From Bacteroidia bacterium (GTDB taxonomy: Bacteria; Bacteroidota; Bacteroidia; Bacteroidales; Prolixibacteraceae), in NCBI GenBank assembly GCA_026391315.1, contig JAPLDT010000072.1:1-59945 (forward strand): a DNA stretch of 59,945 bases. The letters run 5' to 3'. The position numbers were made by a program, and so were the translations under genes. Below, piece after piece: positions 18,080 to 41,481 of this stretch (positions are counted from its first letter, which is position 1; the number at the start of each line of letters is the position of its first letter). The notes beneath the pieces were generated by a model. That model saw only the letters and a program-made list of their open reading frames with translations, was not told the origin of the DNA and searched no databases.

Positions 18080-18475
18080 CTATGTTCGTGCGATTGTATG
18101 AACAATAATCTCGAACAATCTCTTCGCACTTTCATACAATTCTTTGCTTTCGGCAGAGGTTGGTTTTCCTGTTGAAACCATCCCCATATCCCCGGGATAA
18201 CGCGAACTAACGTAGACACTGTCTAACGCGTCAAGTTCTGATAAATCAATTGATTCAATTAAAAATTGTTCGGCAAATGAATGCAGACGAATTAAATTAT
18301 GCACACGTGGAACCTGTATTTCTTTCTCTTCCAACAAAGCTTTAAATGCTTTTTCGACAGCTTGTTGGGAATGAAACGCAACGATATTAGTTACATCCTT
18401 GTCATGCAAATTATTTTCGCAGCTGCGCAAATCGGTCTTTGCGAAATCAAGCCATTGTCGGGTGGATTCCTTCAT
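18080..18475 (-). CDS. HEPN domain protein (HEPN/MNT pair)
   Basis: A 131-aa alpha-helical HEPN protein. It shows WLDFAKTDLRSCEN (8-21), AFHSQQAVEKAFKALL (33-48), the RVHNLIRL segment (57-64) and SRYPGD (91-96), all typical of the HEPN (PF05168) subfamily paired with nucleotidyltransferases. A clear C-terminal RX4-6H ribonuclease motif was not seen. The ATG at 18475 gives the family N-terminus MKESTRQWL and overlaps the MNT gene by 29 nt, a normal arrangement in HEPN/MNT toxin-antitoxin-like pairs. Whether this pair is toxic or a sugar-nucleotide salvage relic is not decided. Confidence 0.82.
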   Translation of the reverse strand: MKESTRQWLDFAKTDLRSCENNLHDKDVTNIVAFHSQQAVEKAFKALLEEKEIQVPRVHNLIRLHSFAEQFLIESIDLSELDALDSVYVSSRYPGDMGMVSTGKPTSAESKELYESAKRLFEIIVHTIART

Positions 18476-18803
18476 ATAGCACGATTCCTTTTTTGAGAAT
18501 TTCATTCGAAAATCCACTGTTTACAATCTTAAACTGCTCGTACATGGGTATTGTAAACACCATTAAATCAATTGGAACCTGTTTCGCGACAGGACGTGTG
18601 TAAGGACTAACTTTCATATACAATGCCTGTTTTTCTTTGAAAGTTGTCGGCATTGAGGTGTCATTAAGAACCACAAATACATCTAAATCACTGTCCTTTT
18701 GTGGCGTACCATAAGCATACGAACCAAAAAGCAAAACAAGATAAGGATCCAATTTGCTCAGGTTTTCTTTAAGTTGCTGTATGTAAATGTTATCGCTTTT
18801 CAA
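18447..18803 (-). CDS. MNT-type nucleotidyltransferase (HEPN partner)
   Basis: A minimal nucleotidyltransferase of about 118 aa when started at the TTG at 18803. The active-site signature GSYAYGTPQKDSDLDV gives GS at 27-28 and metal-binding Asp39/Asp41, with a third acidic residue expected in VPIDLMVFT. MntA-type proteins nucleotidylate their HEPN partner to neutralise it. No ATG lies near the domain start; an open frame continues up to 18986 and into the HNH gene, but those 60 residues do not look like the family. TTG or an ATT start is therefore likely. Same strand as, and 106 bp after, the HNH gene. Confidence 0.78.
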   Translation of the reverse strand: MKSDNIYIQQLKENLSKLDPYLVLLFGSYAYGTPQKDSDLDVFVVLNDTSMPTTFKEKQALYMKVSPYTRPVAKQVPIDLMVFTIPMYEQFKIVNSGFSNEILKKGIVLYEGIHPTMA

Positions 18804-18909
18804 GGTACTATCGTTTATTATGCAGCAAGTTACTAACTTTTTTCGAATTTGGTGAGTACAACCGGATTTTATCAAGTTTGAGATAGGAAAGATCAGAGAT
18901 TCAATCCAG

Positions 18910-20052
18910 CTACCTATTAAATAAAATTCTATCCGAGCTGGTAGTTTTGAAAACCCAATTGTTATTAAATCCCATATTGGCAGCAATTTGAACCATCGGT
19001 TGGATGGTATTGGTTAGTTTTGTACAGAAAATCTGTTTGTTCATTTGGTATATATTCGAAGACATCTCATTAAACAACAGGCAGTAATGCTCCAAAATAT
19101 TGCTTTTCAGTTCGAAATTCGAATCATAAATGCATGTATAAAAGTCATTCTGTAGCGTAACAAAATCCTCTAAATATAGATCCAATGCAGGTAGATTATT
19201 GCTCTTGCTTGAATTGATTTCCTTGCTAACGGGCACAATGTTCCAATTGTAGTCATGGACGGTATAAGACCAGGGGACAAAATGATCAAGTGTAAAACTC
19301 TCAGTCAATTGTTCTTTGGAGTAAATGCACTTCATTCCATTGCTGTGCTTCAAGTAAAAATCCCAGCTTTTAATATTCAATACCAAATTTCGCTTTTCCG
19401 GTTTGAACAACTTGGCAGATATTCCTAAAACATTTGGATTATTCTTCTGAACAAAATTGACAAGCTTCCAATAAATAAACCCTTTGATCAAACCGATATT
19501 GTGCACCAGGTAATCTTTCCATGGCTTATTGATGACAATCTTATCACCTTCAAAATAATAGGGTACCAAATTTGGATTTTGCTTCGAATAATTTGCAGAA
19601 AAATTAATAATCAATGGATTAATCTTATGATCAACCATGCCCGCCAATTCATTTTTGAAAAATGGCCTGATAAACCTGTAAGGAACCCAGCGGGCTAATT
19701 TATTGATTTCCACCTTTATTTGCTTTCTGGTAATTTCATCTGCCTTTTCATTGATCTGCTGAAAAACCGGAGCATTAGAATTCTCCAAATCAACGATTGA
19801 GTTAATGGAATCGGCAATATTTTTAAAATTATCCTGTGAACCAAATGACAGTTTAAAGAAATTTAAAGGATACCACACAGATTCAATCATTTTCTCACAC
19901 AATTCGTCTATCCTTATCTCATTTGTATCCCTTGTTTGTAAGGTATCAAGAATCGCCAGAAACCAATAATATTTGTAAGAGTTGGTGGTATCATTAAATA
20001 CTGATGATAGTATCCCAACAGGAATTTCATTGTTCGGAGGCAAGTCATTCAT
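18910..20052 (-). CDS. HNH endonuclease domain protein
   Basis: A 380-aa protein. Residues 1-225 have no recognised domain and are Asn/Lys/Phe-rich. The C-terminal part holds an HNH nuclease: CIYSKEQL (242-249), FTLDHFVPWSY (253-263, Asp256-His257) and WNIVPVSKEINSSKSNNLP (270-288, Asn271, Asn280, Lys283). Proteins of this layout occur as stand-alone genes in variable or defence regions. The gene is clearly more AT-rich than the glycosyltransferases on either side and lies immediately upstream of the MNT/HEPN pair on the same strand, suggesting a horizontally acquired three-gene unit. Target unknown. Confidence 0.75.
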   Translation of the reverse strand: MNDLPPNNEIPVGILSSVFNDTTNSYKYYWFLAILDTLQTRDTNEIRIDELCEKMIESVWYPLNFFKLSFGSQDNFKNIADSINSIVDLENSNAPVFQQINEKADEITRKQIKVEINKLARWVPYRFIRPFFKNELAGMVDHKINPLIINFSANYSKQNPNLVPYYFEGDKIVINKPWKDYLVHNIGLIKGFIYWKLVNFVQKNNPNVLGISAKLFKPEKRNLVLNIKSWDFYLKHSNGMKCIYSKEQLTESFTLDHFVPWSYTVHDYNWNIVPVSKEINSSKSNNLPALDLYLEDFVTLQNDFYTCIYDSNFELKSNILEHYCLLFNEMSSNIYQMNKQIFCTKLTNTIQPMVQIAANMGFNNNWVFKTTSSDRILFNR

Positions 20053-36055: not shown

Positions 36056-36595
36056 TTAATAATGGATTAACGACCAAACCTCAATATCTTTAGCAATCCG
36101 CTTTCTCCCACCTAAAAAATCCAATTCCACGAAAAAATTTGCATAAATTTTAGCTACACCAAATTTCCTCACCAAGTCAACTGCTGCATTTACCGTTCCT
36201 CCTGTAGCAAGCAAATCATCATGAATTAGAACAATATCATCCTTATCCAGCGCATCCGTGTGGATTTCCAATGAATCTGAACCGTATTCAAGATCATACG
36301 ACTGAACAAAAGTCTCAGATGGTAATTTCCCAGGTTTTCGAATTGGCACAAAACCAGCATGCAACTCACCTGCCAAAATACTTCCTAGAATAAAACCTCG
36401 CGACTCGATCCCAACTACTTTTGTAATCCCGCACTCTTGATAATTGTTTCTTATCTCAGAAACTATGAATTTAAAAATTCCTTTATCTTTAAAAGCAGTA
36501 GAAACATCCTTGAATTGGATTCCTTCTTTTGGAAAATTTGGTACATTTCTTATTGAGTTCTTTACATCCTCTATTCCAATACTTATTCTATTCAT
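36056..36595 (-). CDS. apt: Adenine phosphoribosyltransferase
   Basis: A 179-aa purine-salvage enzyme that converts adenine and PRPP to AMP. It shows RNVPNFPKEGIQFKDVS (17-33), the GIESRGFILG segment, PIRKPGKLP, YGSDSLEIHTDAL and the PRPP loop VLIHDDLLATGGTVNAAVDL. Length and motifs are complete. It is followed 8 bp later by uvrC and preceded by a 114-bp gap that contains the parS-like site. Confidence 0.94.
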   Translation of the reverse strand: MNRISIGIEDVKNSIRNVPNFPKEGIQFKDVSTAFKDKGIFKFIVSEIRNNYQECGITKVVGIESRGFILGSILAGELHAGFVPIRKPGKLPSETFVQSYDLEYGSDSLEIHTDALDKDDIVLIHDDLLATGGTVNAAVDLVRKFGVAKIYANFFVELDFLGGRKRIAKDIEVWSLIHY

Positions 36596-36693
36596 TTTTA
36601 CTTTATATTAAAAGACTTCAGATTTTTTGGTCAATTAGGCAATGTCTACTGATTGTGGTATTTTTAAATAACTTTTACCCAATATAAATGATT

Positions 36694-36709
36694 TGTTCCA
36701 CGTGGAACA
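36694..36709. other. parS: parS site (ParB-binding centromere)
   Basis: TGTTCCACGTGGAACA is a perfect 16-bp palindrome identical to the parS form known from Pseudomonas and close to the Bacillus TGTTTCACGTGAAACA consensus. It directly touches the mnmG stop codon (36710-36712, leftward) in the gap before apt. It would load ParB, and thereby SMC, for chromosome segregation; parS sites cluster around chromosome origins. No parA or parB gene is in the window. Confidence 0.85.
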
Positions 36710-38590
36710 TTAACGACCCAATAATATAAGCAATACATTTATATCATTTGGAGAAATACCAGGAATCCTATGAGCCTGACCAATTGTTTTAGGATTAATT
36801 TTCGACAACTTTTCCCTGGCCTCCGTTGATAAAGACAAAATACTCTGATAGTCAAAGCGATTCTCAATCTTAATGTTTTCTAATCTTGACAATTTCTCTG
36901 CCGCCGATTTTTCCCTATTAATGTAGCCAGCGTATTTGATTCTTATCTCAACTGATTCAATGACATCATTGATTAGCAAATCAGGGATTTCACCCATCTC
37001 ACTTTTACTTTCAGGGAATCTCTCAAAGAAATCTTTTAATGAAATTTGGGGTCGACTAATGATGTTATACAATTTTGCTTTTTGCTTTATTGGAGCAGAA
37101 GAATTTTCAACCAAAAATTCATTAATAAACTCAGGTTTTACAGAAATAGTTTTCAATTGATCAAGCATCCTCTCAACAAATAATAATTTCTCTTTAAACA
37201 ACTTATAAAAAGACTCGGGTAATAAACCAATACTATAACCCAATGCGGATAAGCGCTCATCAGCATTATCCTGTCTCAGAATCAACCTATGTTCAGCTCT
37301 GCTGGTAAACATTCTATAAGGCTCATCTACTCCTTTTGTTACCAGATCATCAATCAATACACCAATGTAAGCTTGATCTCTGGAAAGAACAATAGGCTGC
37401 AATTTGGACAATTTTCTGTGAGAATTGATACCTGCAATCAAACCTTGAGCACCAGCTTCCTCGTATCCTGTAGTTCCATTAATCTGTCCAGCCAAAAATA
37501 ATCCGTCAACCAACTTAGATTCCAACGAATGATTTAACTGTGAAGGATCGAAAAAATCATACTCAATAGCATATCCTGGCCTGATTATTTTTGCATGCTC
37601 AAGACCAGGGATAAATTTCAAAGCTTGTTCTTGAACTTCAAAAGGCAAGGAAGTAGAAAATCCATTCAAATAATATTCAATAGAATCCACACCTTCAGGT
37701 TCCAAATACAATTGATGAGAACTTTTCTCTGAAAATATTATCAATTTAGTCTCGATACTTGGACAATATCTGGGTCCTAAACTCTTTATCGTGCCATCAA
37801 ACATAGGGGATAATTTGAATCCCTTTTCCAATTCTTTATGAACGATTTCATTGGTGTAAGTTATATGACAATTTATAGGTGCCAATTTCTCATAAGAATG
37901 GTAATAAAAACTAAACTGATTACCCACTTCTCCTTCTTGCTCTTCTAACCGACTAAAATCAATTGTCCGCTTATCAATACGAGGAGGAGTACCTGTCTTC
38001 ATTCTTCCAACCTGCAATCCACACCCCTTCAATTGTTCGGAAATTCCAAAAGAGGCGGGTTCAGAAATTCTCCCTCCTCCCAATTGAGTTTGTCCAAAAT
38101 GCATCAATCCATTAAGAAAAGTACCATTTGTCAAAATAACAGATTCAGAAAAAAATTCAATACCAACGTCTGTCCTAACCCCTTTGGCACTACCCTCTTT
38201 CAAAATCAATTCTATAGCAGTACCCTGCCAAAAACTGACATTTTCATTGGATTGAAGTTCAATTCTCCAATTCTCTGAGAATTTCATTTTATCGCACTGG
38301 GCCCTTGGACTCCACATAGCCGGTCCTTTAGAACGGTTAAGCATTCTAAACTGAAGTGAGCTCAAATCGGTGATTTTTCCCATTATACCACCAAGCGCAT
38401 CAATTTCACGAACGATTTGACCTTTTGCTATTCCTCCTACAGCAGGATTGCAACTCATTTGAGCAACCCTATTAATATCCATCGTTATGAGCAATACTTT
38501 AGAACCCAATTTTGCAGCTGCACTTGCAGCCTCGCAACCTGCATGACCAGCACCCACCACAATTACATCAAAAAATCTGTTCCCTCTCAT
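36710..38590 (-). CDS. mnmG: tRNA uridine-5-carboxymethylaminomethyl modification enzyme MnmG
   Basis: A 626-aa FAD protein (GidA) that, with MnmE, modifies wobble uridine 34 of tRNAs. It shows the dinucleotide-binding [15 protein letters not shown] (11-25), [72 protein letters not shown] and the C-terminal helical domain ending [15 protein letters not shown]. It is full length. In many bacteria gidA lies beside the replication origin; here a parS site abuts its stop codon. The gene is AT-rich relative to flanking regions beyond 33 and 44 kb. Confidence 0.95.
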
Positions 38591-40642: not shown

Positions 40643-41073
40643 GATATTGAGTTAAATAATTGTACTTTCATAAACATATATTGTTAATAACTGTTAATAA
40701 AACTTGTGAGTTATTCAAAAAAAAACAGTTTAAACAAATATTTACCAAAAAAGAGAGAAGAAATACCTATTTTTAAAAGAAAAATAAATAACAATTAAAC
40801 TTTAAATAGTAATATAAATAAACAACCCCAACTTAATATTTAAAATTAACATCGTGTTAATAAAATTATATTTAGCAGTTTTGCAATTATTTATAAAGTT
40901 AATAAACATTCAGCATCTTTTTAAAAGATGTAAATTATCAAAAACTTAAATAATTATAAACAATATTATTTAAAAGTATTTAAATTATACTATTGACTTG
41001 TTCATAGAATGAAATCCCTGTTTCATTCCATCATTTTAATAGTTTCTAAAAATAAATTTTTTATAAGTTACTG
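40643..41073. other. AT-rich divergent gap, candidate replication origin
   Basis: 431 bp without a gene, more than 80% A+T by eye, between leftward rpiB and the rightward response regulator. It contains TGTTAATAA at 40682, 40692 and 40855 and AGTTAATAA at 40897, all in the same orientation, plus an 8-bp-stem hairpin at 41007-41028. No exact TTATCCACA DnaA box was found. Its position 4 kb from a parS site and mnmG, at a strand-polarity switch, makes it a candidate oriC; promoters for both flanking genes must also lie here. Confidence 0.4.
41007..41028. repeat. Small hairpin GAATGAAA-N6-TTTCATTC
   Basis: A perfect 8-bp stem around the loop TCCCTG, 45 nt upstream of the response-regulator ATG in the AT-rich gap. 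It may be an operator or leader structure. Confidence 0.4.
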
Positions 41074-41481
41074 ATGATGCCTACTAACATAAATATACAA
41101 AAGCTTAGAGTGCTTCTGGTTGAAGATAATGCTTTGAATCAGAAGTTAATGAATATAAATTTATCAAAATTGAATTGCATCGTTACCATTGCCAATAATG
41201 GTTTGGAAGGGTATAATATTTTTAAAGTTCAAAATTTTGATGTGATATTGATGGATTTAATGATGCCGGTTATGGACGGTTTTGAATCATCAATGGAAAT
41301 TAGAAAACTAGAGAACGATGAAAAGGAGAGAGGTTATACGCCTATTATTGCTTTTACTGCAAATACTTTAAACAATGATTTTCAAAAGTGCGTTGAAAAT
41401 GGTATGGATTATCTCATGGAGAAGCCATTTAACGCTTTCAAATTTAAAGAGATCATAGAATCATTAGGAAAACATTTATAA
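41074..41481 (+). CDS. Single-domain response regulator
   Basis: A 135-aa CheY-like receiver with no output domain. The acidic pocket Glu17/Asp18 (LVEDN), phospho-acceptor Asp61 (VILMDLMMPVMDG), Thr95 (AFTANT) and Lys117 (MEKPFN) are all present, so it should be phosphorylatable. The TAFTANT-like block resembles receivers of hybrid histidine kinases and phosphorelays. No kinase is nearby. It is followed 3 nt later by ruvB, suggesting co-transcription, and it borders the candidate origin gap. Confidence 0.88.
   Translation: MMPTNINIQKLRVLLVEDNALNQKLMNINLSKLNCIVTIANNGLEGYNIFKVQNFDVILMDLMMPVMDGFESSMEIRKLENDEKERGYTPIIAFTANTLNNDFQKCVENGMDYLMEKPFNAFKFKEIIESLGKHL

Follow-up and report, generated by a model that had tools for sequence, protein, structure and literature searches.

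Chromosomal ParABS systems, as described in Bacillus subtilis, Caulobacter and Pseudomonas, comprise a ParA–ParB pair and a few copies of a 16-bp site, parS (TGTTYCACGTGRAACA), lying near the replication origin. The established features of such systems are that ParB forms a CTP-dependent clamp, that it spreads on the DNA around parS, and that ParA pulls on it; in B. subtilis ParB also loads SMC. The number of parS copies can be small, e.g. a single parS is reportedly sufficient in Pseudomonas aeruginosa (title of PMC4368675). A related palindrome, the Noc-binding site (NBS), is bound by a ParB paralogue.

In the Bacteroidetes, oriC is commonly distant from dnaA, according to the accessible part of one report (PMC4755523). 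For two Flavobacteriaceae, Ori-Finder predicts an oriC adjoining mnmG (PMC11278836, PMC12843772); in the available text of the former, dnaA is not aligned with the skew plot, and a figure legend labels mnmG as ter, contradicting the paper's own text. The locus described here is like these two in having an origin beside mnmG and differs from them in that parS is not mentioned in the accessible parts of either paper, both of which concern Flavobacteriaceae only. A Hi-C study of gut bacteria (PMC10197239), in its accessible sections, takes parS clusters together with GC skew as marking an origin that does not always coincide with dnaA, and reports that its two Bacteroidetes have no known condensin; unlike the present case, those sections make no mention of mnmG. 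A statement of parS–mnmG adjacency across the phylum was not found in the literature searched, which largely excludes subscription journals and consists in part of incompletely accessible papers, and such a statement may be in print.

The DNA considered here (hereafter the window) is a stretch of 59,945 nucleotides, equal to the full length of contig C89, one of the 111 contigs that make up a 4.69-Mb draft genome. Its relevant features are as follows.

36694..36709, no strand: parS TGTTCCACGTGGAACA, a perfect palindrome, conserved next to mnmG phylum-wide, and at its stop codon within the genus and the family
36710..38590, minus strand: mnmG (gidA), PF01134 E 3e-154, with a TIGR00136 match
36596..36709: the 114-bp gap between apt and mnmG, containing parS
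36056..36595, minus strand: the next gene downstream of mnmG, which we take to be apt-like
40643..41073: candidate oriC, a 431-bp gap with divergent genes on either side, 82% A+T
40683..40905, plus strand: four copies of GTTAATAA (starts 40683, 40693, 40856, 40898), possible degenerate DnaA boxes, picked out post hoc and weak
41098: minimum of the cumulative G−C count of the window

The first-pass annotation of this DNA described a 16-bp palindrome matching the parS consensus, set directly against the mnmG stop in a 114-bp gap, and both parts of that description are borne out. The sequence at 36694-36709 is a perfect 16-bp palindrome with no mismatches to the consensus, the gap spans 36596-36709, and, because the TAA stop codon of mnmG occupies 36710-36712, parS begins on the very next base. 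Chance occurrences of the exact 16-mer, calculated from either the base or the first-order Markov frequencies of the window, number about 1e-5 for the window and 0.0008 for 4.69 Mb. There is no second match to TGTTCCACGTGGAACA with up to three mismatches elsewhere in the 59,945-nt window, for which shuffling gives a mean of 0.23 matches at this threshold, with at least one match in 21 of 100 shuffles. Scattered copies, which the annotation had named as telling against parS, were not found across the whole draft genome at up to two mismatches: the exact TGTTCCACGTGGAACA occurs once, with none at one or two mismatches and 11 places at exactly three, compared with 13 places at up to three mismatches for a reversed control pattern in the same draft.

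The 16-bp profile of the site is shared by 317 related sites, and a matrix built from these gives 28.7 bits at 36694. With this matrix no degenerate second parS was found in the window, the runner-up place scoring just −2.5. Agreement with parS extends beyond the 12 letters used in searching, in that G is present at position 2 in 311 of the 317 sites and C at position 15 in 315. The palindrome is very probably a true parS of the chromosome, in this genome probably without a second copy, located about 4 kb from the replication origin. In itself this parS is ordinary; the stronger and more notable result is the steady pairing of mnmG with parS across the phylum.

The placement of the site had been called possibly conserved, which turns out to be true far beyond expectation. 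For the phylum, sampling was by mnmG and not by motif: of 128 evenly drawn genomes, 127 gave an mnmG locus, and a second sample was formed by the best 80 GTDB mnmG loci, among which the nearest mnmG is from a Prolixibacteraceae bin (62%). The parS core searched for, TTYCACGTGRAA, covers 12 letters. It is present within 500 bp of mnmG in 116 of the 127 phylum-draw loci and in 71 of the 80 from GTDB, 67 of these 80 having it no more than 100 bp from the stop. Per Mb there are 1743 and 995 cores close to mnmG in the two samples, respectively, versus 27 and 18 elsewhere in the same loci. Control palindromes made of the same letters do not show such enrichment: 175 of 179 are independent of parS, each being found in at most one locus in either set, and the four that match many loci do so because, owing to degeneracy, they share an expansion with parS. 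When the window is excluded and the limit set at 600 bp, a core is present in 118 of 126 genomes and in 27 of 30 families; by kinship label, this corresponds to 28 of 31 genomes of the same class and 90 of 95 from other classes.

The exceptions are varied in type. No core was found within 600 bp of mnmG in families f6, f17 and f31 (five genomes), nor within 500 bp in 11 of the 127 phylum-draw and nine of the 80 GTDB loci. Among these 20 core-less loci, seven have only one-mismatch versions nearby, seven have nothing, and four have an exact core that narrowly misses the limits or falls slightly within the called end of the gene; locus L277 has cores only 3.6–4.6 kb from mnmG, and L316 has them inside mnmG and more than 1 kb off. 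The exact core is missing in three of 18 named genomes searched whole. Where the core is present, its placement is of more than one kind. It is within 40 bases of the stop in 134 loci, in 116 of which it lies at −2 to +12, and within 200 bp before the mnmG start in 81 of 126 genomes; in other families sites cluster before the start, and in family f20 they lie about 0.5 and 1.8 kb past the stop.

Within the family, a motif match with up to two mismatches is present in 127 of 140 genomes, a count that is weak taken alone, because the reversed control also matches many family genomes at this threshold. The site is accompanied by mnmG in 27 of 29 relatives' loci (L014–L042), which were chosen by motif and are not a fair sample for the mnmG–parS link; in L023 and L024 the site is away from mnmG. 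Relative to the mnmG stop in the 27 family loci, the offset is 0 in 24, with a two-base overlap in two and +7 in one; next downstream, 24 of these 27 loci have the apt-like gene. Two loci from other genera of the family (L235 and L236) have extra parS cores with altered ends, 4.5–6.3 kb past the mnmG stop; it may be, in view of these, that the genus of the window has lost secondary sites.

From the motif it had also been predicted that the window lies close to the origin, and this holds, because the cumulative GC-skew minimum of the window, at 41,098, is 4.4 kb from parS; the sampled skew of six closed relatives likewise fits an origin at mnmG. On the plus strand, all seven genes between 33276 and 40642 have a negative third-position skew, and the sign is positive for those at 41074 and 41485. 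The genes measured at greater distance are not uniform: one before 33276 is positive, and three after 43 kb are negative. Conventional origin markers are absent from the window, with dnaA on contig C8 and parAB on contig C17 of the same genome, and parS on C89.

The comparison with closed genomes (n=22, G035 being left out) shows the extent to which these markers have separated. Every one of the 22 has a core no more than about 1 kb from mnmG; of the 63 cores in these genomes, 50 are within about 10 kb of mnmG and 13 are farther away. By contrast, the distance from dnaA to mnmG is less than 5% of the half-chromosome in eight of the 22 and more than 25% in 10, and that from parB to mnmG is less than 5% in none and more than 25% in 19; in closed relatives dnaA and parAB are often hundreds of kilobases to megabases from parS and mnmG. 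The mnmG–parS pairing is kept in most families of the phylum, where dnaA and parAB are not steady. In 20-kb pieces from six of these closed genomes, belonging to four families, the sign of the third-position skew is that predicted for an origin at mnmG in 74 of 80 samples, versus 22 of 80 for an origin at dnaA, the samples in four of the genomes being symmetric about mnmG, so that the origin is bracketed no better than to about one-tenth of the chromosome. The signal is weak for G172, where seven of 10 samples agree with mnmG as the origin, and for G257 mnmG is outperformed by 18 of the 400 origins tried. Averaged skew around mnmG in 49 GTDB loci was not used: whole-base skew turns positive upstream of mnmG, and third-position skew is without a clean flip at mnmG, gene direction being a confounding factor.

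The likeliest position for oriC in the window is the gap at 40643-41073. It is the longest and most A+T-rich of six gaps of more than 100 bp measured between 27 and 59 kb, and it provides an A+T-rich region at the skew switch, as expected of an oriC. A comparably placed A+T-rich gap occurs in two further species of the genus, 2.0–2.6 kb 5' of mnmG. With respect to DnaA boxes, TTATNCACA is absent from the gap, a relaxed form, TTATNNACA, is present four times in it versus 0.4 expected, and canonical boxes are not enriched in the window as a whole (30 matches with up to one mismatch versus 49 in shuffles). Four of the five copies of GTTAATAA in the window fall within 40683..40905. As a conserved origin box GTTAATAA was a weak candidate and was set aside, being present in the window and one congener and absent from a third species of the genus and from two other genera.

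The lack of a parB gene had been named in the first-pass annotation as evidence that would tell against parS, and the gene is in fact present. The genome has one ParB of chromosomal type, given by a single TIGR00180 match (E 7e-58, contig C17), with N-terminal and HTH domains (PF02195, PF17762), and ParA is encoded directly before it (L013 599-1393, PF13614 E 1e-71). On contig C17 (L013 1-3522) parAB comes after an open reading frame, away from dnaA and parS; this frame looks to us like the end of priA. Such an arrangement is unlike that of chromosomal ParABS systems, parAB not being by the origin or parS (within 5% of the half-chromosome in 0 of 22 closed genomes).

Compared by phmmer with solved structures, the ParB matches Noc (E 2e-51), Spo0J (1e-50) and the 6t1f ParB (2e-49), the last of which we take to be from Caulobacter. 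Noc structures are thus its closest solved relatives by score, a likeness to the NBS system; score alone cannot separate ParB from Noc, because Noc leads Spo0J and ParB only slightly. The residues at four specificity positions, presumably positions 173, 179, 184 and 201 of Caulobacter ParB, which we understand to decide between parS and Noc sites, are R, Y, R and G in this ParB, R, T, A and G in the 6t1f ParB, and Q, K, K and R in Noc. By this alignment, two are ParB-like, two are like neither protein and none is Noc-like. Unlike the NBS system, this ParB carries R and G at positions occupied by Q and R in Noc; the centre of the site, CACGTG, also differs from that of NBS, which we take to be CCCGGG.

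A further difference from chromosomal ParABS systems is that SMC–ScpAB was not found in the draft genome. Nothing in it scores above the TIGR02168 cut-off for SMC, and its 18 SMC_N matches are all in open frames of 220–768 amino acids, too short for a full SMC. ScpA was found in none of four family genomes (G000, the present one, G001, G035 and G036) and is present in 15 of 24 genomes searched overall; ParB is present in all four of the family genomes without ScpA. The genome, a draft assembly, is thus apparently without SMC–ScpAB, so that segregation most likely depends on ParA or on some condensin that escaped recognition, and it may be a natural case of ParABS without the usual condensin partner.

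Since the palindrome could form a 6-bp stem with a 4-base loop, it might instead act as the transcription terminator of mnmG. A scan with a consensus finds one terminator-like element on the mnmG strand, versus 0.3 in shuffles, and the predicted fold includes the palindrome hairpin, but the stretch folds no better than shuffles (z 0.04), and the bases of the hairpin loop belong to the conserved motif. Although T is somewhat over-represented in the 10 bases that follow stop-side sites (0.34 versus 0.27), only 16% of 154 such sites have at least six T in the next 10 bases. Sites with C5–A12, which break the RNA pair, are as common on the stop side as those with T5–G12, which allow wobble (36 versus 35), and in 81 of 126 genomes a core is located up to 200 bp ahead of the mnmG start. 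Termination as the main function was rejected on folding, scan, T-content and pair symmetry, and we regard the terminator interpretation as very improbable. Short CACGTG palindromes are bound by other factors, and the site does lie upstream of apt, so enabling it to be read as the operator of another palindrome-binding regulator acting on mnmG or apt. Such a role is scarcely credible given that the full 16-bp parS form is conserved, that the sites in other families are not at one promoter (before the mnmG start, or past its stop in f20), and that the skew switch coincides with the site.

A different matter, arising within the assignment as parS and not in competition with it, is whether contact with mnmG has any meaning, or whether mnmG is merely next to the origin. 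The latter is somewhat the more probable case: some families have parS at the stop and others have it at the start, so no single geometry is required. However, mere proximity sits less well with the finding that 116 of 134 near-stop cores are at −2 to +12, and with a link that is seen in 27 of 30 other families, whereas dnaA and parAB did not stay.

With the palindrome assigned as parS, ParB dimers would recognise it at the mnmG stop, close into CTP-dependent clamps and slide over the flanking DNA; ParA would then pull on the spread ParB, such that freshly copied origins separate first. We infer that the mnmG–parS neighbourhood is a fixed origin landmark of the phylum, since in many relatives parS and mnmG have stayed in place and dnaA and parAB have been relocated; the neighbourhood may be kept because the centromere must stay near the origin. 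A bolder proposal, which is speculative and rather unlikely, is that the origin of the Bacteroidota is anchored by the mnmG–parS unit and not by dnaA, with loading of ParB at the mnmG edges being functionally coupled to origin firing or to mnmG expression. Such coupling would have kept the unit together while dnaA, parAB and, in some lineages, SMC–ScpAB were relocated or lost. The testable question raised is why a tRNA-modification gene and a centromere stay paired while the initiator and partition genes move. In practical terms, mnmG together with parS may serve as an origin marker that is usable in draft genomes and metagenome bins, where dnaA misleads.

Elsewhere in the window, on the minus strand at 18080-18986, Pfam matches identify a gene for a HEPN protein overlapping one for a nucleotidyltransferase-domain protein, an arrangement that, in our view, resembles a HEPN–MNT toxin–antitoxin pair.
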